From Polycladidibacter hongkongensis (GTDB lineage Bacteria > Pseudomonadota > Alphaproteobacteria > Rhizobiales > Stappiaceae), in contig NZ_LLWC01000026.1 in the NCBI RefSeq assembly GCF_001561995.1, forward strand, positions 124,001 through 188,000: a stretch of 64,000 nt of DNA. Reading direction: 5' to 3'. Shown here piece after piece: positions 6,429-64,000 of the stretch (position 1 is its first letter; each line of letters begins with the position of its first letter). The position numbers and the translations under genes were made by a program. The notes under the pieces were generated by a model, which was not told the origin of the DNA, did not search any database, and saw only the letters and a list, made by a program, of their open reading frames with translations.

Positions 6429-7124
6429 TTAGTCCGCGACTGGAGCAGGCCTAATGCGCGCATCTATTTGTTCGATTGAAATCGTGTATTGCTTGCATTC
6501 ATTCCATGCCGCTTGAACAATACAAAGGAGTGATGAGTGCAAGAAGCTTTCGACCAACAATCTGACAAGAGAGCTCAGGTGCTGGTCGGCGATGGATTCA
6601 TACAGAGGCCTAAACGCGATTCCTAGTAATTCAACCAATAGAAGCGGCAGCCATAAGGCGAAAGCAAGTTTGCGGGTTATCACCCAGCTTTCAATTATAC
6701 TGGCAGACCCTCGCTCAACGAACATCGGCAGGACGACGCATATTCTTATAAAAGACCAAAAAAAGAGGAGCAGAGTTGTATATATAAGGAATTTACTGAT
6801 CGGCTTGTATTCTGGACTGTTTATGTCCAAACCAAATTGCCAACTGGTAATAAAAATGACTGCAAGATAACCAGAGGTTAGTAATATCATCAAGCACACT
6901 GCGCTGAATCCCAGTTTTAAAAGAAACAGCAGTAGCTTTTTTGCTCCTGTGAGAAACTGGGCGTTTGAATACTCTACTGCATTCATTGTTAGCAACCAGT
7001 ACAGCAAAGCGAACACGCAAAATATTATCGAGAAAGCAACTAATGTTAATCCGACAACACTTTGAAGCGTGTTGCTAAATGGGGTACATTTCCAATGCGG
7101 CAACAAGCGGAACGCGAAAAGCAA
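6429..7124 (-). CDS. Uncharacterised membrane protein, likely 5'-frameshifted paralogue of the 5573 gene
   Basis: 231 residues from a TTG at 7124, with five to six hydrophobic helices. Its VVLPMFVERGSASIIESWVITRKLAFALWLP segment lines up with MVPAYAFLARSGSGGIKQAWAFTRPIRKHLWVY of the neighbour, and both end in a W-rich helix. The TTG directly follows a TGA and has no ribosome site. One base out of phase, an ATG at 7204 reads MSALLGFPKEILKSFSLANVV, which matches the neighbour's N-terminus (MLGRFLGLIFSNLRG...) in position and character. So the original gene probably started at 7204, with a frameshift (real or a sequencing error) near 7125-7130. Base composition is more AT-rich than the neighbours. 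Confidence 0.65.
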   Translation of the reverse strand: MLFAFRLLPHWKCTPFSNTLQSVVGLTLVAFSIIFCVFALLYWLLTMNAVEYSNAQFLTGAKKLLLFLLKLGFSAVCLMILLTSGYLAVIFITSWQFGLDINSPEYKPISKFLIYTTLLLFFWSFIRICVVLPMFVERGSASIIESWVITRKLAFALWLPLLLVELLGIAFRPLYESIADQHLSSLVRLLVESFLHSSLLCIVQAAWNECKQYTISIEQIDARIRPAPVAD

Positions 7125-7204
7125 TCAGCAAAAGCCAGAGAAACAACGTTTGCGAGCGAAAAACTTTTTAGAATTTCCTTTGGGAAGCCAAGTAGTGCCG
7201 ACAT

Positions 7205-7481
7205 TATAAATATCCAAAACATCTAATAAATATTTATGGAGTTTAGAGCAATAACGCTCAGAGACTACTGAAAATGGCTAATTAATCACTTAAAAGCACC
7301 CACTGAAATGTGAGCAATCGTTGACCCGTTAAGGTCGCCGCCAATACAACCGCACGCGCGGTATCATACTGCTGCAATATTGACGTGTATTTTTTCACTT
7401 ATTGATGGATTTTTTCGAATCTTCCAGTCATGCTGATATTTCTTCGTCATTTTGACGAGGGCTTAGATTTAGGAGAGACAC
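7205..7481. promoter_or_regulatory. Divergent upstream region with inverted repeat before cpdB
   Basis: AT-rich, no credible gene. Just before the cpdB ribosome site lies a perfect inverted repeat TCGTCA-TTT-TGACGA (7444-7458). It could be an operator half-site pair or a small 5'-UTR hairpin. The spacing of GTCA elements does not fit a PHO box. Confidence 0.4.
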
Positions 7482-9458
7482 ATGTCTTCGCAGTTTTCGC
7501 TCACCCGTCGCGGCGTTTTGGGAGGCCTTGCAGCTGCTGGTGCCTCCAGCCTGTTGCACCCCTACTCCGCCTTTGCATCCGGTAACACTGCCCATCTGCG
7601 TTTGATGGAAACCACCGATTTGCATGTTCATGTCATGCCCTATGATTATTATTCGGATCGGCCGGTGGACACAGCGGGCTTGGCGCGTACTGCGAGCATA
7701 ATCAATCGCATTCGCTCTGCGGCAACCAATACCATGCTGGTTGATAATGGTGACTTCCTGCAGGGTAACCCTATGGGCGATTACATTGCCTACGAGCGCG
7801 GGATGCATGATGGGGATGTGCATCCGGTTATCAAGGGCATGAATGTGCTGGGTTATGACGCTGCCACCCTTGGCAACCACGAGTTCAACTACGGTTTGGA
7901 CTTCATGACCAAGGTGCTGAACGGCGCTAACTTCCCATTTGTCTGCGCCAACCTTGTGAAGGGCCAACTGGGCAGCAATGGACGTAAAGATAGCCTGTTT
8001 TTAAAGCCTTATGTCATCGTTGAGAAGATGATTACAGATGGCAACGGCCAGAGCCATCCGATCAAAGTCGGCTTTATCGGCTTTGTACCACCGCAAATCA
8101 TGAACTGGGACGCCCGCCATCTGGTTGGCAAGGCCAACGCGCGTGACATTGTTGACGCTGCCAAGGCTTGGGTGCCGGTGATGAAAGAGGAAGGCGCTGA
8201 TATTATTGTGGCGCTTTCACACTCTGGTATTACGGGTGGACGTTACATGGAGGGGCAAGAGAACGCCTCGCTGCACCTTGCAGGCGTTGATGGCATTGAT
8301 GCGCTGTTTACCGGTCACCAGCACCTTGTCTTCCCCGGTCCTGCATTTGAAGGCATTGAGGGCGTTGATGTTGCCGCTGGCACCTTGATGGGCAAACCTG
8401 CGGCGATGGGTGGTTTCTGGGGCTCCAACCTTGGTGTTATCGATCTGATGGTTGAGCGCGATGGCAACAATGGCTGGAAGATTGCCAAATTCACCACAGA
8501 AGTACCAAGCATCTACAAGAAAGATGGCCGCAAGCGCATTCCGCTAGTTGAGAGCGATCCGAAAGTGGAAGCAGCTGTGGCTGAAGATCACAAAGCCACT
8601 CTTGCTTACGTGCGCCGAGCCGTTGGCGAGACATCCGCGCCGCTTTACTCCTACTTCGCGCTCGTTGCCGATGATCCGTCGGTACAGATCGTCTCGCAGG
8701 CGCAAACCTGGTACACCAAGCAGATGCTGAAAGATGGCCCATATGCTGCCCTGCCAGTGCTTTCGGCTGCAGCGCCGTTTAAGGCCGGTGGCCGTGGTGG
8801 CCCTGAATATTACACCGATGTCGCAGCCGGTGCGGTGGCGATCAAGAACGTCGCCGATCTGTACCTCTATCCAAATACCACGCGTGCGGTGAAGATTAAA
8901 GGTAGCGACGTTAAAGAGTGGCTGGAACGCTCTGCCGGTATCTTCAATCAAGTCGTGCCGGGCAAGACCGATCAGCCACTGATTAACCCTAGCTTCCCGA
9001 GCTACAATTTCGATGTGATTGATGGGGTGAGCTACCAGATCGATCTATCGCAGCCTTCCAAATACGGACCGAAAGGTGAGCTGGAAAATGCCGATGCAAA
9101 CCGCATCGTCGATCTGATGTTCGAAGGTAAGCCAATTGACCCTGAGCAGGAGTTCATTGTGGCGACCAACAACTACCGCGCCGGTGGCGGGGGTAACTTC
9201 CCGGGCATCAACGATGAAGTTGTTGTGTTTGTTGGACCAGATACCAACCGCGACGTGATTGTGCGCTACATTGTCGATCAAGGCGTTATCAATCCATCTG
9301 CGGATGCTAACTGGGTGTTCAAGCCGCTAGACAACACCAGTGTGCTGTTTGAAACCGGCCCGGCTGGTAAAAAATACATGGGCGATGTGAAGGGTGTACA
9401 GATTGAAGAAGCGGGCGATGGCAAGGACGGTTTTGCCGCCTACCGCATCACACTCTAG
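7482..9458 (+). CDS. cpdB: Periplasmic 2',3'-cyclic-nucleotide 2'-phosphodiesterase/3'-nucleotidase (CpdB-like)
   Basis: 658-residue exported metallophosphoesterase that turns 2',3'-cyclic nucleotides into nucleosides and phosphate for scavenging. A twin-arginine signal (LTRRGVLGGLAAAG) leads the protein, suggesting Tat export with metals inserted in the cytosol. Calcineurin-type metal motifs follow in order: DLHVHV near residue 46, DNGDFLQGNP, GNHEFNYG, SHSG and GHQH. The C-terminal half is the 5'-nucleotidase substrate domain (NNYRAGGGGNFPG). The ribosome site AGGAGAG is good, and a strong terminator follows. A signal of this length and CpdB-specific motifs favour CpdB over UshA. Confidence 0.93.
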   Translation: MSSQFSLTRRGVLGGLAAAGASSLLHPYSAFASGNTAHLRLMETTDLHVHVMPYDYYSDRPVDTAGLARTASIINRIRSAATNTMLVDNGDFLQGNPMGDYIAYERGMHDGDVHPVIKGMNVLGYDAATLGNHEFNYGLDFMTKVLNGANFPFVCANLVKGQLGSNGRKDSLFLKPYVIVEKMITDGNGQSHPIKVGFIGFVPPQIMNWDARHLVGKANARDIVDAAKAWVPVMKEEGADIIVALSHSGITGGRYMEGQENASLHLAGVDGIDALFTGHQHLVFPGPAFEGIEGVDVAAGTLMGKPAAMGGFWGSNLGVIDLMVERDGNNGWKIAKFTTEVPSIYKKDGRKRIPLVESDPKVEAAVAEDHKATLAYVRRAVGETSAPLYSYFALVADDPSVQIVSQAQTWYTKQMLKDGPYAALPVLSAAAPFKAGGRGGPEYYTDVAAGAVAIKNVADLYLYPNTTRAVKIKGSDVKEWLERSAGIFNQVVPGKTDQPLINPSFPSYNFDVIDGVSYQIDLSQPSKYGPKGELENADANRIVDLMFEGKPIDPEQEFIVATNNYRAGGGGNFPGINDEVVVFVGPDTNRDVIVRYIVDQGVINPSADANWVFKPLDNTSVLFETGPAGKKYMGDVKGVQIEEAGDGKDGFAAYRITL

Positions 9459-31674: not shown

Positions 31675-33411
31675 TTAGTCGGGCCGCAGGCGCGCTAAAT
31701 GCGCAGCGCCAAGCGGTAGTGGCAACTCGTCAAGCGAACCGTTTTTCAGCTCCAGAACTTTGCTAACACGCGCCACCTCAAGGGCGCGGTGCGAAATCAG
31801 CAAGGCCCCGGCATCGGCACTCATGGTCAAAAAGCTCTGCAGCACCTGCTTTGCCGTTGTTGCATCCAAGCCCTCGGTTAACTCGTCGGCAATCCAGAGG
31901 CGGGGTTTACGCAAATAGGCGCGCGCCAGCGCCAAGCGCCGCCCTTCTCCACCAGACAGGCCAAGCCCAGATTCACCCAATACTGTTTCCAGCCCCATTG
32001 CCTCTCTACGAATGCGGTCATCCAGCCCGGCAAGGGCGAGTGCCTGCCACAATTCATCCTCACTGGCTTCAGGCTTTGCCAGTCTCAAGTTTGCGGCAAC
32101 CGTGTCATGGAAAATCTGAGTTCGCTGGCCGACAACCACAAGATTCTGACGCAAATCCTCTTCACACAGCATGGCAAGATCCGCACCGGCAAGTTTGATG
32201 GTACCCGAACCAGGAGTAAGCAAGCGCGCCAGCAAAGCTGTGAGGGTCGATTTACCGGCGCCACTGGGGCCGACAATGGCGATCTGCTCGCCTTGGTTGA
32301 GTGAAAAACTCACACCGGCAAGCGGGGCATGGCCTGTGCTTGGGTAGGCGTAGGTGAGGTCATTAACCTGCAGCACAGGCTCTGCATTCTGCCTCCCTAC
32401 TATTTTCAGGGTTTGCTGCGCTGCAACCGCATCGCGTTCCTCGCCCGCTTTGAGCAGGGCTGTCACCCGCTGCGCCGCGCCAGCCATGCGCGCCCAGCTG
32501 CCAGCGCCATTGGCGGCAGAGACCAGCAGTTCTGGCAATGCCAGCGCGACAAAGGCAAACAGCGCCATATGGCGCAGCTCCAGCTGCCCCTGTTGCATCG
32601 CCCAAGCGGTGAGCGCGAATGTGATCGCCAGCAGGCTCTGAGACAGCGCACTGATAAACGTTGTGGACTGGGTGTCTTCTTGCTCAGCACGGCAGGTTTC
32701 CACCTCCAGACGGCTGGCAGCGCGCATAATTTTAGCTTGCTGGCGGTCCAAGCCGCCATAAACGCTGAGGTCGCGGCGGCCCCGCACCATATCTGCGGTT
32801 CTCACACGTAGAGAATCCTTGGCGCTGTTGTATTTTTGCGCGTGCTCGCGTGCCTCCTGCCCTGCTGTTTTGGCGAGTATAGAGATCCCGAGGATTTGCA
32901 CGGCAGCAATGGCCAGTGCTGCCGGCGGGGCGTATTGAAACAGGATTATCACTGACATGCCAGTAATCACTATTGTGACGAACAGCGGCAGGGCCAAGCG
33001 CAGATAAAGGCCATCCAGCTGATCCACATCAGAGACCACACGCGACAACAGCGAGGCCGTGCGAGAGCCCTCCGCGTCCTTGCGCGTTTGCGCCACCACA
33101 CCGCGAAACACATCACGGCGTAAGTTACTTAAAAAACGGAAGGTGGCGTCATGGGTGACAAGGCGCTCGGCATAGCGGCCGAAAATGCGCAGGGCAGCAT
33201 AGAAGCGCACACGAAATGACAGAGTGCTTACTGTCACGAGCGCAGTTCCCCCCAAAGCGGCACTCATGGCAGCAGAGGTGATTAACCAGCCTGAAACCGC
33301 CAGCAATGCAATGCCGGCAGCAGCGGGCAGCAGCGCCAGCAGCGCGCCAGACCAAAAGGCGATAGGGTGCTGCTGCTGCAAGCGCAGGAGAATAGCAAGG
33401 GCAGCTCTCAT
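31675..33411 (-). CDS. cydC: Heterodimeric ABC exporter subunit CydC
   Basis: 578 residues: an exporter-type membrane domain (six helices, residues 1-300) and an ATPase domain. Walker A IVGPSGAGKSTLTALLARLL, Q-loop VVGQRTQIFHDTVAANL, signature LGLSGGEGRRLALARAYLRKPRLWIADELTEGLD, and H-loop LISHR. CydDC exports cysteine/glutathione to the periplasm and is needed for cytochrome bd and c maturation. Overlaps cydD by 4 bp, with cydD first in the operon, as in enteric bacteria. No cydAB gene is in this window. Confidence 0.93.
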   Translation of the reverse strand: MRAALAILLRLQQQHPIAFWSGALLALLPAAAGIALLAVSGWLITSAAMSAALGGTALVTVSTLSFRVRFYAALRIFGRYAERLVTHDATFRFLSNLRRDVFRGVVAQTRKDAEGSRTASLLSRVVSDVDQLDGLYLRLALPLFVTIVITGMSVIILFQYAPPAALAIAAVQILGISILAKTAGQEAREHAQKYNSAKDSLRVRTADMVRGRRDLSVYGGLDRQQAKIMRAASRLEVETCRAEQEDTQSTTFISALSQSLLAITFALTAWAMQQGQLELRHMALFAFVALALPELLVSAANGAGSWARMAGAAQRVTALLKAGEERDAVAAQQTLKIVGRQNAEPVLQVNDLTYAYPSTGHAPLAGVSFSLNQGEQIAIVGPSGAGKSTLTALLARLLTPGSGTIKLAGADLAMLCEEDLRQNLVVVGQRTQIFHDTVAANLRLAKPEASEDELWQALALAGLDDRIRREAMGLETVLGESGLGLSGGEGRRLALARAYLRKPRLWIADELTEGLDATTAKQVLQSFLTMSADAGALLISHRALEVARVSKVLELKNGSLDELPLPLGAAHLARLRPD

Positions 33412-35264
33412 GATGGCTCTCCTTTAGCTTGCGCTGGTGTGTTTTCTAGCCCCTGAGGCGCGGGTGGGCGCGCTTGCAACCTGCCATCTAACAGATCCAG
33501 TATCATATCGGCAGCGCTTTGCACTGCTGTGTCATGGGTGGCGGCGACCACCAAGTGGTGCTGAGAGAGTTGTTTTAATGCAGCGGTGACTTTTGCTGCG
33601 GTCACGCCATCAAGGTCAGCGGTTGGTTCATCCGCCAGAACGAGCGGCGCGTCTTTGCGCAGCGCAGCGCGGGCAATGGCAAAGCGGCGCATTTCACCCA
33701 TGGAAAGCCCGGCCCCTTCCTCGCCAATTGGACCAGCAAGCCCCCCTGGCAGTTTCGCAAGGATTTCATCTGCACCAGAGAGTTTTAGCGCGGCAAGCAG
33801 CTCTTCATCGCTGGCAGAAGGAGCGGCTCTGTGGAGGTTGCTACGTACGGTACCATGGAAGAGCTGGGGCTGTTGGCTAATACTGGCGATGCTTTGTTGC
33901 CAGTCCTTTACGTTTTCCGCACTTAACGGTTTGCCATCCACGGTGATCGCACCACTATCAGGCAGCAGAAAGCCCACTAACGAATCCAGCAGAGTTGTTT
34001 TGCCCATGCCAGAGGCGCCGGAAAGCACGACGAGGCCGCTGCGTGGGAAGGTGAAAGACTGCTCCTGCAATACAGTTTTGCCACCACGGGAGATACTGAC
34101 ATTTTCCAGTGCCAGTGTTCCGCTAAATAATTGCACAGTTGCCGAGGGTACGCTGTTAACCGGGTGCGCTGGTTTTGCCTGTTGCAGCTCCTCTTCGGCT
34201 TTGCAAAGCAACTCGGCAGCTGAAGCAGCAGACACCTTGTCATGATAAGCAAGCGCAAACAGGCGCAGCGGGCCAAAGAATTCGGGCACGAGCACAAGGA
34301 TGAACAGGCCTGACCCCAGAGTGATGGGATCGCCGTAGCTGCCGAAGTTCCAATGTCCCAATAAGGAAAAGCCTACATAAATTGCTGTTATGGCAATGCC
34401 GGCAGCGGCAAAAAGCTCGAGCGATGTGGAGGATAAGAATGCAATGCGCAACACGCGCATGGTGGCACGGCGAAAGGCATTGCCGTGTTCATCCAGCGTT
34501 GTTTCCGTGGCTTTCAGCGCACCAAACAGGCGTAGGGTTTCCAACCCGCGCAGCCGGTCTAGCAGCAGTGCGCTCATGTCTGCCAGCAAGCCGTGCTGGT
34601 CATCGCTTGCCTTCTTGGCGCGAATGCCCACAAGGGCCATAAACAGCGGCACCAGTGGCCCAATGAGCAGCAGCATAAGAGCTGCGAACCAGCTGACACA
34701 GGCTATGGCCGCTAAAATACCCAATGGCACAATGGCCAGACGCGGCTGTAATGGCAGATAGCGCGAAATATAAGGCCCCACAGCGTGCACATGATCCACG
34801 ATCAGCGCGGCCATCTTACCGCTGGCAGGAACCGGCAGGGCGGGGGATGCGGTCACCAGCGCCTTGGCCAAACGGGCATGCAGACGGGTGCGCACATTCG
34901 AGGCGCTTTCTTGCGCCAGCTTATTAGCGCTGTGACGCAGAGCAGCGCGCAGACCAGTGAGGGCGAGCAAGCAAGCCGCATAAATCAGCGCTTCACGGTA
35001 GGCCCAGCTCGCAGAGGAGACCAGCGTAAACCCCATGGCTAGAATGGCGGCCTGCGCAATCCACAACAACTCGCTAAGGCCGTGCAAACGCGCTGCCCAT
35101 GCAAGGCGCGTCTTTTCCGGTGCGATTTGGGCCGCCAGCCATATTTGTGCTGGGGTGCGCTGGCGTTTTCTGCGGCCTTGCTTTGCTTGTGGCTGGTTAA
35201 CACCTGCCCTTGTGTTATCAACTGCGGTGTCCTGCGGATTATCTGGTTCTGCCTTACGCTGCAT
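33408..35264 (-). CDS. cydD: Heterodimeric ABC exporter subunit CydD
   Basis: About 618 residues from the ATG at 35264. A hydrophilic N-terminal tail is followed by six helices and an ATPase domain: Walker A LSGASGMGKTTLLDSLVGFLL, Q-loop IASISQQPQLFHGTVRSNLHRA, signature GAGLSMGEMRRFAIARAALRKDAPLVLADEPTADLD, and H-loop VAATHD. CydD-type membrane helices carry IVDHVHAVGPYISRYLPLQPRLAIVPL. The frame is open 30 codons further upstream, but that part looks non-coding. Partner of cydC. Confidence 0.92.
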   Translation of the reverse strand: MQRKAEPDNPQDTAVDNTRAGVNQPQAKQGRRKRQRTPAQIWLAAQIAPEKTRLAWAARLHGLSELLWIAQAAILAMGFTLVSSASWAYREALIYAACLLALTGLRAALRHSANKLAQESASNVRTRLHARLAKALVTASPALPVPASGKMAALIVDHVHAVGPYISRYLPLQPRLAIVPLGILAAIACVSWFAALMLLLIGPLVPLFMALVGIRAKKASDDQHGLLADMSALLLDRLRGLETLRLFGALKATETTLDEHGNAFRRATMRVLRIAFLSSTSLELFAAAGIAITAIYVGFSLLGHWNFGSYGDPITLGSGLFILVLVPEFFGPLRLFALAYHDKVSAASAAELLCKAEEELQQAKPAHPVNSVPSATVQLFSGTLALENVSISRGGKTVLQEQSFTFPRSGLVVLSGASGMGKTTLLDSLVGFLLPDSGAITVDGKPLSAENVKDWQQSIASISQQPQLFHGTVRSNLHRAAPSASDEELLAALKLSGADEILAKLPGGLAGPIGEEGAGLSMGEMRRFAIARAALRKDAPLVLADEPTADLDGVTAAKVTAALKQLSQHHLVVAATHDTAVQSAADMILDLLDGRLQARPPAPQGLENTPAQAKGEPS

Positions 35265-58070: not shown

Positions 58071-59522
58071 CTAGGAACGCGAGGGCCCCGGCGGCATTGG
58101 AATTGCCACAGGGTCTACATTGCCTTCGATTCCTGCAATATGACGAAGGTTTGAGTTTTGCAGTTTTGCCCCTAGCCCTTGGGAGCAGGCGCGCGCGTAT
58201 GTGGCCTTGTCGGTGAGCGCGTGGGTGTTTGCCTGCTTGGTGGCGGCCTCCAGTTTTGCGGCGCGGTTCACGGCATCGCCGATAACGGTGAATTCGCGGC
58301 GGGTGTCAACGCCTATCACGCCAAGGTTCACGCGCCCGCAGGCGACACCAATGCCGATCTGGAACGCCCCCTCCCAGCCAATGCAGGTGAAGTGCGGTTG
58401 CATATCGCCGATCTTGCTCAGCAGCGCTTGGGCGGCGCGGATGGCGTCGGCGCTGTCTGTAGAGCTGTGGGTGAGTGCGCCGAAGGTGACCATGATGCCG
58501 TCACCAAGGAACTTGTCGATCTCGCCATTGTGCTGCTTTATTGCGCGGATGGCCAGCTGTTGATAGCAGGAGAGCACGCGCATGGTCTTGGCGGCGCCGA
58601 TGCGTTCCGAGGCCTTGGTGAAGCCGCGAATATCTATAAACATGATGGTGGCTTGCCGGCAGGTGGCGTCAAATGTCTTCAACTCATCGCCTGCCTCTAC
58701 AATAGAGCTGGCAACGCCCTGCGGGAAATAGCGGGAGAGATCTTCCACCGCCACCTGCTCCTTTATGGCGCTGAGTAACACACGGCGGGAGCGCTGTAGG
58801 GCTAGGGCGAGAATAAGCGTCACGGCCGTGATAATGATGAACTTGTCCATCTCCGCGCCGACCAACATGGTGTTGGCGGTGAGGTACTCCACATAATTGC
58901 GAGTAATGCGGGCCATGCCGTCATCCTGCAACAGGGCATAGAACACCAGCAGCAACCAGCCGCTGGCAGCAACGGCGCCGGTGAGCAGCACCAAGCGGGG
59001 ATCAAAACGCAAGGCACGCAACGCGATAAACACAAACACATAGGCAAGCGTTGGGGATTTCAGATAGAAAGTTGCGTGTTGATCGTATTGCAGGTGAAAA
59101 GAAAACAGCAGCCCCATCACCAGCGCCACGTCGACAAAAATGGAAAGCACCACCAACCACAATGGCGGCTTGCCACGCAGGCAGACTGCAAGGCGAAACA
59201 CGGTAAAACCCGCATAGGCGGCAAGGGCATAGGGAACATAGTTAAAGCCGCCTGAGCCTTCAGCGCGCGGCGCGATTATGTAAAGCGCTGCAAAAAAACT
59301 GATCACCGCCAGCTGCACCAGCGAAATCAGTCGCTCGGCAGTTTCCTCTTCTTTACGTAGCTGCGCGGCGAGGCGTGCAGGCAGAGGTGTTCTCTTAAAT
59401 GCCTTTTCAAGCCATAGCTGCCAGCGGGCTTGTTTGGCAGATTCGCCGTCCTTATCAGGCGCGGTAGCTGCCAACAACGAGGTGGATGCACTGCGAGCAT
59501 GGGGGATATCTGATTTTGCCAC
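58071..59522 (-). CDS. Membrane-bound class III adenylate/guanylate cyclase
   Basis: 483 residues. A hydrophilic N-terminus is followed by six hydrophobic helices (about 65-84, 97-114, 121-140, 158-170, 177-198, 225-243), a linker and the cyclase homology domain (about 288-445). Metal-binding Asp residues lie in FIDIRGFT (D297) and KFLGDGIMVTFG (D341). Lys337 before LGD suggests ATP as substrate. The VIGDAVNRAAKLE loop keeps the Asn but has Lys where the transition-state Arg usually sits, a change seen in other bacterial cyclases. Start is a GTG with a weak ribosome site. Last of four co-directional genes. Confidence 0.9.
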   Translation of the reverse strand: MAKSDIPHARSASTSLLAATAPDKDGESAKQARWQLWLEKAFKRTPLPARLAAQLRKEEETAERLISLVQLAVISFFAALYIIAPRAEGSGGFNYVPYALAAYAGFTVFRLAVCLRGKPPLWLVVLSIFVDVALVMGLLFSFHLQYDQHATFYLKSPTLAYVFVFIALRALRFDPRLVLLTGAVAASGWLLLVFYALLQDDGMARITRNYVEYLTANTMLVGAEMDKFIIITAVTLILALALQRSRRVLLSAIKEQVAVEDLSRYFPQGVASSIVEAGDELKTFDATCRQATIMFIDIRGFTKASERIGAAKTMRVLSCYQQLAIRAIKQHNGEIDKFLGDGIMVTFGALTHSSTDSADAIRAAQALLSKIGDMQPHFTCIGWEGAFQIGIGVACGRVNLGVIGVDTRREFTVIGDAVNRAAKLEAATKQANTHALTDKATYARACSQGLGAKLQNSNLRHIAGIEGNVDPVAIPMPPGPSRS

Positions 59523-59690
59523 GTGTTGCCCCGGTTGTTTTTATTGTTTGCGGGCGGCTGCATGTCGCAGCTAGGGCAAGTGTAACCAGACAGGCTTAAC
59601 AGCTGGTTGGAACAAGGCAGAACGTGTGATGCAATCGCTTCACTTTTGAGTGACGAGCTGTGTCCAGCTCTGGGTGCTTTGCACCGGGCT

Positions 59691-60512
59691 TCAGGCAGAA
59701 AGGTACATACCATCCCGTGCAACCAACGCCGTTTTTAGTTGCTGCTGGGCCTCGACCTCGATCTGACGGAGCTCAGCGTCGGTGCGATCTGGCTCATGGT
59801 GAAAAATCACAGGGGTTTTTACGTTGGCACGCTTGGCGAGGGCGATAACATATTGCCATGTGGAGTGGCCATAGCCGCGAAAATGCGTGTACTCAGCATC
59901 GGTGTACATCGCATCATGGATGAGAATATCGCAGCCGTTTATGGTTTTTTCGATCTGCGCATCAATGCTGGCATTGCCGCTTTCATGATCTGTGATGATG
60001 GCGATAGACTTGCCGCCAACATCGAAGCGATAGCCACAAGCGCCGCCGGGGTGGTTTAGCGCAATGGGGGTAACTTTCAACCCCTCCCCCACCTGCCATG
60101 CAAGATCCATGGGCCGCACAACAAAGCTGGACGTGTGCAGGGAATTGATATTCACCGGAAAGACAGGAGGAGACATGATACGGCAAATCGCCTCTCGCAG
60201 TTTAACCTCGCTTTTGAGATGACAGGCGGTCAGCGTGAGGTGAAAATCACTCCGATAAGCAGGGGCGAAGAACGGCAGCCCGTTGATATGATCCAGATGA
60301 ACGTGTGTGAAGAGAATATCGAATTTACGCTGCTCTCCGGCAAGCAGCAGCTTGCCAAGCGGGCGCGCGCCTGAGCCGCAATCAACGATGAGCGAATGGG
60401 TGCCCGCGCAAATTTGCAGGCACGTGGTTTCGCCGCCAAAGTGCAGGGCTTGGGGCCCACTTACCGGGGTGGAGCCGCGAGACCCCCAGATTTTCACGCC
60501 CAATTCTGGCAC
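59691..60512 (-). CDS. Metallo-beta-lactamase-fold hydrolase (PhnP/cyclic-phosphodiesterase-like)
   Basis: 273 residues. Begins VKIWGSRGSTPVSGPQALHFGGETTCLQI, the start typical of MBL-fold phosphodiesterases, with SLIVDCGSGARPLGK. The metal site is THVHLDHINGLPFF (His70, His72, Asp74, His75), then ALNHPGG (His154), ITDHES (Asp175) and FHHEPD near 238. The HxHLDH stretch matches the core of class II cyclic-nucleotide phosphodiesterases only in part. The enzyme might hydrolyse a cyclic nucleotide, which would fit the gene context, but a cyclic phosphate of another kind is possible. Starts at a GTG. Confidence 0.85.
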   Translation of the reverse strand: MPELGVKIWGSRGSTPVSGPQALHFGGETTCLQICAGTHSLIVDCGSGARPLGKLLLAGEQRKFDILFTHVHLDHINGLPFFAPAYRSDFHLTLTACHLKSEVKLREAICRIMSPPVFPVNINSLHTSSFVVRPMDLAWQVGEGLKVTPIALNHPGGACGYRFDVGGKSIAIITDHESGNASIDAQIEKTINGCDILIHDAMYTDAEYTHFRGYGHSTWQYVIALAKRANVKTPVIFHHEPDRTDAELRQIEVEAQQQLKTALVARDGMYLSA

Positions 60513-60573
60513 TGCCTCTTTGTCCTTTGCTTTAGCTTCAGCTTGGGCTTTGGTTCCCGATACCAGCGGCCTG

Positions 60574-61032
60574 TCATTCCGGTTGCCCTTCGTTTTGAAG
60601 GGATTTGCGCGCTTGTGCCAACTCTCGTGATGTGGCCTCCAGCCGTGCGGCGAGTTCTTTTGTCATGGCCACAGCGATCTGCGGGAATTCCTCAAGCAGC
60701 TCAAGCAGGTTGTCTTTGCTAATGCGCAGCACCTCGGCATCGTCACTGGCCAGCAGAGTGGCCGTGCGGGGAACATCGCATAAAACCGCAATTTCCCCCA
60801 GTACCGAACCGGGCCCCATATGCGCAACGGTAACGTGGTTTACCTCCACAGCAATTTCGCCGGACAGGACAATGTATGCTTCACTGCCATCTTCGCCCTG
60901 TTCGCACAGGGGCTCACCGGCGAGATAAAGCGAGCGCTCGGAGATAAACGCCAGTAAGCGGAGCTTGCGATCATCCAGCACCGAGAACAACGGCACTTGG
61001 CGTAGTGCTTCCAGTTCAGCATCTATGCTCAT
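60574..61032 (-). CDS. Stand-alone cyclic-nucleotide-binding domain protein
   Basis: 152 residues, almost all one CAP-family nucleotide-binding domain: LFSVLDDRKLRLLAFISERSLYLAGEPLCEQGEDGSEAYIVLSGEIAVEV, then the phosphate-binding cassette GEIAVLCDVPRTATLLASDD (about 79-98) with the ligand-binding Glu and Arg. A C-terminal helix (LEATSRELAQARKS) follows; there is no DNA-binding domain, so it is not a transcription factor. Start ATG overlaps the stop of the upstream ABC gene by 4 bp, so the two proteins are probably made in equal amounts and may interact. Confidence 0.92.
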   Translation of the reverse strand: MSIDAELEALRQVPLFSVLDDRKLRLLAFISERSLYLAGEPLCEQGEDGSEAYIVLSGEIAVEVNHVTVAHMGPGSVLGEIAVLCDVPRTATLLASDDAEVLRISKDNLLELLEEFPQIAVAMTKELAARLEATSRELAQARKSLQNEGQPE

Positions 61033-63668
61033 GTGGGGGCCTCCTCTTGGCTGTTGCCACTGCCGGTGGCCAGCTGGTGAATGGTGTTAGCCTCCAGTTG
61101 CCAGCTCTCATCAAACTCGGCGGCGATTTCCGGGTTGGTGGTGCCAACCACCAAGATGCTCTGCTTGACATACGCGCGCAGTTGCTGGCGGCGTTCTTTG
61201 GCGGCTGTGTCTGTTCCGCTCAAGATATCATCAATGACAATCATAGTGTTTTGGCGCAGCAATGCTGTGACCAAGGCCACCAATTGTTTTTGTCGTAAGT
61301 TCAATTGCGCGCCGGAGCTGCCCACATGGAAATCAAGACCGGCGGTTTCCAAAGCGCGGGTCATATCCAGCTCCATGATGATATCGCGCAGGCGGGTTTC
61401 TATGCGTTCCTCTGCATCCTTCCTATCCAGCCGAGCCTTGCCGAAAACGATGTTATCCTGCACGCTCATATTGTCCATGTAGCGCGTTTGATCGAAAAAT
61501 TCGAAACGCTCGGAACCCACGCCTTCACGCTCTAAAAACGCGACGCGCATTTCCAGCAGTTTCTCCTTGATCTGCGGGGTAACAATGCCAAGGCGATGCT
61601 TGGTGGGGATGATGCGCAGAGCGATTTCCATCAGGCGGGCTTTTTCCTCATCATTGGGGCTGCGGTTTTTCATATTGCTGCCACACAGGCGCACCAAGCG
61701 TTGGAAATAGGGCAAATCCTCCTGCGAAATGAAAGAATAGGTGGCAAACAGGGGGCTGCCGGTGGAAACATCGCCAAACAAATCGAGCATCATTTCGACG
61801 GTCTGGTAACCCATCGAAATCAGCTGGTCATAAAAATCGTAGGCCTTCAGAAAAGCTGCGACACGGCGGGAGCGCACCAATTGGGATAGGTTGAGCTCGC
61901 CGCGCCTCGGGTTGGCGAAGAACAAGTTTTCGATCACGGTGGCGGAGGAGTTGTAGCTATCCATTTGCCACAGTTCCAAGCGGTTGGAGAGCTTTGGATC
62001 CTCGCGCACACGCTGCGCGAAAATACGGCGGGCCTCCAAGACTTTCTCCCGAACGTGGTGATGCTCGCCTGCACTGAGTGTGGAGCGCAAGCCCATGCGG
62101 TAAAGATCGTTGCCAAGGCCGGTCAGGTGGCACAGATCAACCGCTTTGTCTTCCAATTGCTGCGCCGTGTTGACCCCGGCTGCCTGCAACTCGTCCCACC
62201 CTGCATAGATAGAGTAATTTGGATTGGCCGTCATGGCCGCTTCGTGGGTGCGGCGGCGCAGGTGATCGGGGGTGATGCGCTCGCCATTGTCTGTCTCCAT
62301 CCCTTCTTTGGGGTCGGTTTGCGGGCGGTGGCGCAAGGAATAATAGATATTGTCGCGCATGGTGCCCGTCCAGATGTGCGGGGAGCGGCCCACATAAGCG
62401 ATTTGCCTACCCAATGTGGCTTCATTTTGCATGCCAAGGTCATTGTCTCCCAGCGCTACATGGCCAGAGACCGGGGGCAGCAGGCCCGCTATGGTTTGCA
62501 TGAGTTCGCCGCGGCCGTTGCCATCTGACCCGTTGATTGCAAGTGAACTACCGGTTTGCTGCGTGAGTGTTAGCGCGGGGCTGCTGCGATTGCTGGAGTA
62601 GTTCTGCGCAGTTACCCCCTCCAGCTTCAGGGGGCCATGCAGCTTGGTGACCTCGTCGCTCACCAGATGGGTGGTGGGGTAGATCTCTTTATGATCGAAG
62701 TTTTCGATCACAGTTTGGTATTTAACGGTGACATCTGCGGTGCGCTGATAGAAGGCGAGCAACTCTTTCCACGGGCCTGCCAGATCTTTATAGGCGGCGA
62801 TCACAGCCAGCAGCGCGCCGATGGAAAGATCTCCCTCGATCACCAGATATCCGCCGATCAGATAAAAGAAAAACGGCGTAAGCTGGTTCATGAAGTTGTT
62901 TAGAAACTTGATGAGAAACTTGCGATTGTAGATATCAAAGCGAATTTTGAAGTTTCGATAGAGGCGCTCGGACAGGTCGGCGCTGTGATAGGCGCTGGTG
63001 TCATTGGCGTGAATCTCGTTGATACCCGCGACCGTTTCACCCAGCTTCTCTGCGATAACACGCACGTTTTTCACCCGCTCGCGGGAAAGGCGGATCACCT
63101 TTTTTTGCAGTTTGGGAATGATGTAGCCCTGCACCGGATAAAGGCTGATGGCTGCGAGGCCGAGATAAACGTTTTGCATAAAAATAAAGCCGATTTGCAC
63201 CAGCAACATACCGCCCTGATAGGCAGGCAGGGCAATGCTTTCACCGATGTAGCCGCCCACGTCCTCCACTTCTGCGGTGATCATGGGAATAAGCTGGGCG
63301 GAAGAGACTTTGCGAAAATGTGGCAGCTTAAAGCGCAAGATACGCTGATAAAGCTCAAAGCGCAGACGGCGTAACATGCGCTCGCCCAAGCGCCCCTTGT
63401 AGACATTCAAGAAAAGTTTGAAGCCGTTGGACACAACGACCAGAAACAAAAAACTTAAGGATAGAAACAGCAGGTACTGTAGCTGGCTAAATTCAAAGCC
63501 CAAGAATTGCACCGGAAAGCCGGAACCTTGAATGGCACCGTTTGTAATGTGCTTTGGTAGATCAAGCAGAATGTAACTCACCGGATAGGAGGCAATGGTG
63601 ACGAGCAGAATTACAAACTGATAGCGTGAGGAATACTGCCAAATAAACTTGAAAAGCGACTTCTGCAT
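61029..63668 (-). CDS. Large ABC-transporter-like protein with degenerate ATPase domain
   Basis: 879 residues from the ATG at 63668 (GGGAG upstream). The exporter-type membrane domain is about 1-320, with helices near 18-37, 64-82, 151-186 and 264-294. In the ATPase part, Walker A reads GSDGNGRG (379-386: Lys to Arg, Ser to Gly). The Q-loop region is YVGRSPHIWTGTMRDN. A 280-residue insert follows, then FFDQTRYMDNMSVQDNIVFG, the C-loop position QLNLRQKQ (instead of LSGGQRQ), Walker B MIVIDD (Glu to Asp) and an H-loop reading VVGTTN without His. Every catalytic motif is altered, so ATP hydrolysis is doubtful. First gene of the cluster. Confidence 0.88.
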   Translation of the reverse strand: MQKSLFKFIWQYSSRYQFVILLVTIASYPVSYILLDLPKHITNGAIQGSGFPVQFLGFEFSQLQYLLFLSLSFLFLVVVSNGFKLFLNVYKGRLGERMLRRLRFELYQRILRFKLPHFRKVSSAQLIPMITAEVEDVGGYIGESIALPAYQGGMLLVQIGFIFMQNVYLGLAAISLYPVQGYIIPKLQKKVIRLSRERVKNVRVIAEKLGETVAGINEIHANDTSAYHSADLSERLYRNFKIRFDIYNRKFLIKFLNNFMNQLTPFFFYLIGGYLVIEGDLSIGALLAVIAAYKDLAGPWKELLAFYQRTADVTVKYQTVIENFDHKEIYPTTHLVSDEVTKLHGPLKLEGVTAQNYSSNRSSPALTLTQQTGSSLAINGSDGNGRGELMQTIAGLLPPVSGHVALGDNDLGMQNEATLGRQIAYVGRSPHIWTGTMRDNIYYSLRHRPQTDPKEGMETDNGERITPDHLRRRTHEAAMTANPNYSIYAGWDELQAAGVNTAQQLEDKAVDLCHLTGLGNDLYRMGLRSTLSAGEHHHVREKVLEARRIFAQRVREDPKLSNRLELWQMDSYNSSATVIENLFFANPRRGELNLSQLVRSRRVAAFLKAYDFYDQLISMGYQTVEMMLDLFGDVSTGSPLFATYSFISQEDLPYFQRLVRLCGSNMKNRSPNDEEKARLMEIALRIIPTKHRLGIVTPQIKEKLLEMRVAFLEREGVGSERFEFFDQTRYMDNMSVQDNIVFGKARLDRKDAEERIETRLRDIIMELDMTRALETAGLDFHVGSSGAQLNLRQKQLVALVTALLRQNTMIVIDDILSGTDTAAKERRQQLRAYVKQSILVVGTTNPEIAAEFDESWQLEANTIHQLATGSGNSQEEAPT

Positions 63669-63871
63669 GTCAACTCCCGACAATTTACCAGAGGCAATTA
63701 TCTTTATGGAAACTAAGGGGAACCTCCGAATATTGCGTGGGGACACGGTAAGGCGTCAGGTATTAAAAAGTTGGCGGTAGGACAAGTTGCCGCGCGCAAA
63801 GCGGTACAACTTTAGCTGTGATGGTTGGCAAGTGGTAAATGCATGCTCGCCCGCAGCCGCTAGGAGGTGTG
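63669..63871. promoter_or_regulatory. Divergent intergenic region between the ABC-like gene and the glycosyltransferase
   Basis: About 200 bases between two divergent starts. I see no clear operator. The AGGAGG at 63862-63867 is the ribosome site of the rightward gene. Confidence 0.4.
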
Positions 63872-64000
63872 GTGGCGATAGCCGCAAGACAGAATAAGGC
63901 ACGCCCGGCACGGGTGCTGATCTACAGCCACGATACGTTTGGGCTGGGACACTTGCGCCGCTGCCGGGCCATCGCCCACGCGCTGGTTGATTGTTTTGAT
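63872..64000 (+). CDS. Glycosyltransferase-like protein (N-terminal fragment)
   Basis: Open from the GTG at 63872 (AGGAGG 4 bases upstream) to the window edge, 43 codons. It reads MAIAARQNKARPARVLIYSH, then DTFGLGHLRRCRAIAHALVD. The YSHDTFGLGHLRRCRAIA stretch is the N-terminal donor-site loop of a GT28/MurG-like family found in alphaproteobacterial polysaccharide loci. The remainder lies outside. An in-frame GTG just before is possible. Confidence 0.8.
   Translation, partial: MAIAARQNKARPARVLIYSHDTFGLGHLRRCRAIAHALVDCFD

Follow-up and report, generated by a model that had tools for sequence, protein, structure and literature searches.

What could a cyclic nucleotide do beside an ABC-type membrane protein that has lost the canonical motifs for ATP hydrolysis? 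The question arises from a locus at one end of the window, by which we mean the whole 64,000-nucleotide stretch of Polycladidibacter hongkongensis DNA analysed here. The sequence-only reading had described four genes of the same direction, for an ABC-like membrane protein, a separate protein consisting of a cNMP-binding domain (CNB), an MBL-fold hydrolase and a membrane-bound cyclase of class III, and the minus-strand ORFs and their Pfam matches bear this description out. We propose, with a probability of roughly 0.5, that a cyclic nucleotide acts via the CNB on an ATPase-dead ABC-fold protein in the assembly or export of an envelope glycan.

Organization of the locus

The ABC gene occupies 61029..63746 (-) and is called as a protein of 905 aa, with a TMD at about residues 27-350 and an NBD with degenerate motifs at about residues 370-872. 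Its ABC_membrane match (59.2 bits, cut-off 28) and its ABC_tran match (44.7 bits) both exceed the curated Pfam cut-offs. The true start is probably the ATG at 63668, which would give about 879 aa, because the alignments of the closest homologues start at residue 20-27 and the family's conserved block opens at Met27. The CNB gene (60574..61032 (-), 152 aa; cNMP_binding, 66.3 bits) does overlap the ABC gene by 4 bp, as had been noted, at 61029-61032, and a ribosome-binding-site-like sequence, AAGAGGAGG, precedes its start within the ABC gene. The MBL gene follows at 59691..60512 (-) (273 aa; Lactamase_B_2, 68.2 bits) and the cyclase gene at 58071..59522 (-) (483 aa; Guanylate_cyc, 56 bits); these three matches also exceed the curated cut-offs.

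The glycosyltransferase-like gene that had been placed divergently does start at 63839 on the plus strand (Glyco_tran_28_C, 33.4 bits, cut-off 22) and exits the window (63839..64000 (+)). It opens a divergent cluster that continues on the same contig to about 69590 and consists of a GT28-like gene, two GT4 genes and a second GT28-like gene, all named from Pfam, followed by a deacetylase-like gene, which has no Pfam match and is named after an S. meliloti ORF with a polysaccharide deacetylase annotation, which it matches at 33%. Beyond this cluster, at 69627-77930 in window numbering and thus past the window end, lie four minus-strand genes of the peptide-transporter type, which we take to be Yej-type, and a second cyclase, whose Cache match is below the cut-off.

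Promoter-like sites (4 vs 3.2 in shuffles) and terminator-like sites (10 vs 6.7 in shuffles, sd 2.4) are not clearly above chance, the GC content per kb (46-59%) has no clear break at the four-gene region and a PHROGs comparison gives general matches only. Elsewhere in the window, two neighbouring stretches (32557-33186 and 34320-35078) hold further ABC_membrane domain matches.

The CNB gene as a companion of the ABC gene

How widespread is the ABC gene, and what accompanies it? A protein search (E <= 1e-40) finds it in 93/297 genomes of the order, and it is present in 129/385 sampled genomes of the class, which we read as Alphaproteobacteria, to which the named homologues encountered belong. 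In a sample of the phylum, 28/398 genomes carry it, and the only one outside the class (G772) matches through the TMD alone. Neighbourhoods were compared in 100 regions from 90 genomes and in three named loci, with five partial ABC matches (G078:C250, G046:C65, G067:C19, G189:C41 and G052:C24) left out of the regions. Full-length loci number 101 including the window, and the family of the window contributes 12 of these, once the TMD-only paralogues L140 and L141 are excluded.

The CNB gene lies directly downstream of the ABC gene on the same strand in 90/101 full-length loci, with an offset of -3 to +207 bases from the ABC stop (the window's offset of -3 is common to 17 loci); in another 10/101, ABC and CNB form an in-frame fusion with the CNB at the C-terminal end. 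A profile search, with CNB, MBL and cyclase profiles built from matches in these same loci, likewise places an adjacent or fused CNB downstream on the ABC strand in 100/101 and detects none on the other side or strand of the ABC gene within the 101 locus stretches. The full-length locus L116 lacks a CNB in the 1.3 kb between the ABC gene and the contig end. Pfam finds the ABC and CNB domains within one protein in L143, L088, L131 and L187. On a tree of 92 rows, which includes one wrong ORF (L101) and leaves out nine homologues, the fusion label must have been gained or lost two times or more along well-supported branches. CNB, MBL and cyclase are all absent from the 1.5-kb flanks of 30 canonical-exporter loci of the same order, flanks that are long enough for a CNB or MBL at its usual distance and mostly too short for a cyclase. 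Distances among the ABC parts, CNB and MBL correlate at 0.81-0.93 (54 loci), values that shared descent predicts and that are not evidence of interaction.

The strongest inference from this linkage and fusion is that the CNB and the ABC protein act as one unit, usually serving envelope-glycan production. The window ABC protein resembles type IV ABC exporters (MsbA/BmrA/ABCB class) in its PF00664 TMD and PF00005-like first NBD half, and matches PDB entries over about residues 90-480. However, its family differs from them in having a CNB partner or fusion in 100/101 loci, a repeated second NBD half and, across 101 rows, no canonical ATPase set. CNB-type proteins annotated as tied to export are already represented by TIGR03896 (cyc_nuc_ocin, bacteriocin-type transport-associated protein), whose exporters are presumably ABC transporters, but the window CNB, at 32 bits, falls short of the cut-off of 161 and its context is glycan rather than peptide.

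Glycan context and the S. meliloti PPP locus

With the window's glycosyltransferases as tblastn queries (E <= 1e-8), a match occurs in 70/87 loci of at least 12 kb, GT4 matches at this threshold not necessarily being orthologues; at the same threshold, 17/87 of these loci lack a match, which counts against the glycan reading. The deacetylase-like gene is matched in 50/87 long loci and YejA-, YejB- or YejE-type genes in 21-27, YejF counts being excluded because the YejF query also matches all 30 control exporters.

S. meliloti has its ABC and CNB homologues on pSymB, in a cluster with a cyclase, a polysaccharide lyase, Yej-type genes, glycosyltransferases and methyltransferases, and MBL, deacetylase, sugar-nucleotide dehydrogenase and sulfotransferase genes lie further out. 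Identity to the window's genes is 34% for ABC, 45% for CNB, 41% for MBL, 48% for GT4, 26-35% for GT28-like and 33% for the deacetylase, and three of the four Yej-type genes match at 47-56%, the fourth being unmatched in the ORF set used. The pSymB cluster differs in its gene order, its additional polysaccharide lyase and methyltransferases, and its adjoining cyclase, which is just 23% identical to that of the window over 175 residues. In its gene set, the window's cluster resembles a PPP-type polysaccharide locus.

The pSymB cluster most likely corresponds to a locus already known from genetics, the PPP (phazolicin-protecting polysaccharide) locus, smb21252-smb21271, the smb numbers being deduced from gene order. 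According to PMC10128002, nine genes in smb21252-smb21271 are required for a putative, uncharacterised surface polysaccharide, provisionally called PPP, and mutants of the glycosyltransferase genes smb21252 and smb21265 show reduced phazolicin tolerance. Seven of the nine PPP genes are up-regulated under Myxococcus attack, as reported in PMC10315480. Locus tags on pSymB rise by five, and the interval running from HB773_24220 (GT4) to HB773_24125 (FkbM) comprises 20 slots, two of them without a listed gene. We equate the two loci because 20 slots is the count of smb21252-smb21271 and because the 14th slot is GT28-like, which fits smb21265. SMb21247 is a deacetylase and SMb21249 a sulfotransferase according to PMC5498481; on pSymB, a deacetylase gene and then a sulfotransferase gene directly precede the GT4 gene, and a strict count puts them two numbers higher. 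Therefore, two numbers must be missing between the sulfotransferase and GT4 genes. The same slot count would assign smb21269 to the ABC gene and smb21270 to the CNB gene of S. meliloti. A further literature lead, redB of R. etli, led nowhere.

The polysaccharide connection that had been surmised from gene order is thus strengthened by the glycosyltransferase matches and by the S. meliloti PPP locus as PMC10128002 describes it. ABC exporters, CNB domains, bacteriocin-linked CNB proteins (TIGR03896) and the PPP locus are known. The sequence-only reading knew of no described pathway of this composition; this no longer holds for the locus, which is partly known from S. meliloti genetics, but it stands for the ABC-CNB arrangement, of which no description in glycan loci, as a pair or a fusion, was found among the top matches of the literature searched.

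Making, sensing and removing a cyclic nucleotide

The window CNB holds a phosphate-binding cassette of the form Gly-Glu ... Arg-(Thr/Ser)-Ala, GEIAVLCDVPRTA. Across 97 rows (3/100 matches below 60 bits being omitted), the pocket is conserved, with Gly in 97/97, Glu in 93/97, Arg in 94/97, Thr after the Arg in 81/97 and Ala in 89/97. In the PDB, the window CNB matches eukaryotic cGMP- and cAMP-dependent kinases best. Threonine after the cassette arginine is typical of cGMP-preferring eukaryotic domains; we do not call the ligand from this residue because bacterial cAMP binders also have Ser/Thr.

Class III cyclases use two metal-binding aspartates, a lysine and a threonine that contact the purine, a transition-state asparagine and a catalytic arginine four residues after it. 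In the 33 closest cyclases (score >= 200 bits), D297 is retained in 33/33, D341 in 32/33, K337 in 31/33, T412 in 32/33 and N419 in 31/33. By motif, the window protein (58071-59522) would be an adenylate cyclase, possibly a slow one. Its activity is not certain because a lysine replaces the usual catalytic arginine, as it does in 30/33 rows (1 Arg, 2 gaps).

The MBL protein retains its conserved His/Asp metal motifs in a 54-row alignment and shares these and the MBL fold with NF041851, the cNMP-degrading MBL phosphodiesterases, and with Apyc1 (PF23023). This likeness is distant, and the protein falls far below the curated cut-offs (40.5 bits vs 400 for NF041851; 15 vs 50 for Apyc1); it is also similar to RNase Z. 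In Rhizobium binae, a calcineurin-type phosphoesterase gene (L145:15400-16029) adjoins the CNB gene, and the best family matches of its product are not cNMP phosphodiesterases.

Had the four-gene order been peculiar to one strain, the circuit suggested from it would have lost its ground. The order ABC-CNB-MBL-cyclase recurs in 28/100 regions of the order, which fall into 7/33 families; 17 of the 28 come from families other than that of the window. ABC-CNB-MBL recurs in 51/100. In profile searches, MBL is present in 54/101 loci, always downstream on the ABC strand (54/54), and a class III cyclase lies near the ABC gene in 57/101. It is downstream on the ABC strand in 51 of these, downstream on the opposite strand in three and divergently upstream in three. 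The genome of the window contains four class III cyclases in 3.74 Mb; therefore, a cyclase within a few kb of the ABC gene is not expected by chance. Counting against the circuit, the same search of one stretch per locus detects no cyclase in 44/101 loci and no MBL in 47/101.

The nearby cyclases have more than one architecture according to Pfam. If the nucleotide matters, one would expect cyclase types to be exchanged in this way while the CNB stays constant. Two cyclases downstream of the CNB (L096:4587-6308 and L103:10022-11689) carry a Fer2 (2Fe-2S) domain, hinting at a redox input; in the same Fer2 group, L127 and an ORF of L122 have a Fer2 match and no Guanylate_cyc match at 0.001. In L136, a cyclase-AAA-TPR protein is encoded divergently, upstream of a fused ABC-CNB gene.

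Are the MBL and the cyclase parts of the device at all? They might be passengers, with the ABC-CNB pair as the sole functional unit, its ligand supplied by other cyclases and the MBL working on another substrate. No cyclase is detected in 18/54 MBL-bearing loci, the window's genome has three class III cyclases besides the one in the window, and the score of the MBL against the cNMP phosphodiesterase model, given above, points the same way. In contrast, the consistent downstream placement of both genes on the ABC strand and the occupation of the same place by Fer2-type cyclases in some families argue for membership, and we hold the passenger explanation to be improbable.

A degenerate and enlarged NBD

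The NBD is long because its second half (residues 443-872; 61131..62420 (-)) appears to be repeated. The segment with the Q-loop, helical and signature parts appears to be tandemly triplicated as R1 (443-592), R2 (593-742) and R3 (743-872). In two runs of profile comparison, R2/R3 gave 97.2% (118 columns) and 97.6% (55 columns), R1/R3 gave 88.5% (96 columns) and 94.0% (81 columns), and R1/R2 gave 88.2% (93 columns) and 87.3% (24 columns), so that R2/R3 is best supported and R1 weakest. The repeats against TMD or Walker A segments gave at most 0.4% in the first run (6 pairs) and 0.1-9.8% in the second (10 pairs), where the 9.8% pair shares eight residues owing to the chosen limits. Residues 480-742 compared with PDB sequences yield one match (E 0.97), to a designed helical repeat. 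The TMD shows strong conservation and contains Arg, Pro and Gly residues that are invariant. Its mean identity to the window is 54% vs 27-30% for the four NBD parts (101 rows), the reverse of the canonical control exporter (TMD 53%, NBD 61%; best-scoring 30 copies).

Such a protein need not transport anything. The ABC-CNB pair may instead be a membrane receptor or scaffold in which cNMP binding alters the state of a glycosyltransferase complex. This role, the main rival to transport, would suit the degenerate NBD, its enlarged and repeated helical part and the glycosyltransferase genes that adjoin most long loci; however, the conservation of the TMD, including its invariant residues, could fit a substrate path, and we regard the receptor or scaffold role as unlikely.

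If the protein does transport, could it still be driven by ATP? The window protein has the ABC_membrane TMD of an ATP-driven exporter and lacks the Walker A Lys, the Walker B Asp-Glu and LSGGQ, having Arg, Asp-Asp and LNLRQ in their places. The degeneracy remarked on from this one sequence proves to be family-wide. At the Walker A lysine position, the 101 rows have Lys in 4, Arg in 56 and Ala in 30; Glu is retained at its Walker B position in 6/101; and the full set of Lys, Ser/Thr, Asp and Glu occurs in 0/101. In the control exporter, each of Lys, Glu and LSGGQ is present in 30/30. Motif loss is therefore a trait of the whole ABC family and not a defect of the P. hongkongensis strain. The family appears to have lost its ATPase while the TMD remained under strong selection. 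One ABC-CNB fusion (L088:6487-9597) is the only row with both the Walker A Lys and the Walker B Glu, and its Walker B Asp is replaced by Asn.

An ATP-driven glycan exporter with an unusual nucleotide site, to which the CNB would be an accessory or assembly factor while the cyclase and MBL regulate elsewhere, would explain why the TMD and the first NBD half match exporters and why the Walker A Gly positions (89/101 and 92/101) and the signature-helix Gln (90/101) are retained. The missing catalytic residues, the inverted pattern of identity and the existence of TMD-only paralogues speak against it and make it distinctly unlikely. A Pycsar-like antiphage system, with a cyclase, a CNB-controlled membrane effector and the MBL as off-switch, would fit the domain-level PADLOC matches of the cyclase to PycC models (best 82 bits) and of the CNB to TIR-type Pycsar effectors (66 bits) and the weak Apyc1 match of the MBL, but is highly improbable given an occurrence in 93/297 genomes of the order and 129/385 of the class, mostly near glycan genes and unlike a patchy defence island, the purine-type cyclase residues (Lys 31/33, Thr 32/33), where a Pycsar cyclase would be pyrimidine-specific, and the polysaccharide-type phenotype of the S. 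meliloti locus in PMC10128002.

Proposed mechanism

The four genes would lie at one end of an envelope-glycan locus that is conserved in alphaproteobacteria. In the proposed control of an ATPase-dead ABC-fold protein by a cyclic nucleotide, a cyclase, here of the membrane class III type, would make the nucleotide (cAMP by motif), and the small CNB would bind it and act on the co-encoded ABC-type membrane protein. The ABC protein, having lost a working ATPase, would be controlled by ligand binding to the CNB instead of or atop an ATP cycle, and would handle the glycan of the flanking glycosyltransferases by gating it, by flipping it or by keeping the synthesis complex assembled. Removal of the signal would most likely fall to the MBL hydrolase. 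The near-constant pairing or fusion of the CNB and the usual position of the ABC gene among sugar-polymer genes suggest direct second-messenger control of an ABC-like membrane protein without ATPase motifs. Nucleotide gating would follow from the fusion and the conserved CNB pocket. Gene content, linkage, fusions, motif loss, pocket conservation and glycan context are observed, and ligand identity, physical gating, transported substrate and MBL activity are inferred.

The boldest form of this proposal is transport without ATP. The ABC protein would be a cyclic-nucleotide-gated ABC-fold glycan channel or flippase, in which cAMP or cGMP on the CNB, relayed via the triplicated helical part of the NBD, opens or drives the membrane path; we offer this only tentatively, as a rather unlikely version.

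If this version is right, second-messenger control of envelope-glycan export would operate non-transcriptionally in about a third of the class genomes sampled. To our knowledge, Alphaproteobacteria, and rhizobia above all, have many class III cyclases and few known receptors besides Crp-like regulators. The cassette offers a dedicated, co-encoded and non-transcriptional candidate receptor, which is covalently joined to the membrane protein in 10/101 loci. It would also offer a testable mechanism for the undefined surface polysaccharide that is reported in PMC10128002 to protect S. meliloti from a peptide antibiotic.

An ABC family with apparent ATPase loss is a direct test case for what an ABC fold might still do without ATP. 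TMD-only paralogues without an NBD exist in L141 (ABC-side 6725-8068), L185 (7773-9077) and L186 (7773-9077), and therefore this type of TMD can persist without an NBD. These paralogues adjoin copper oxidase and plastocyanin-like genes, those of L185 and L186 lie between a plastocyanin-like gene and a cytochrome c gene, and some TMD-only paralogues are located in copper-resistance operons.
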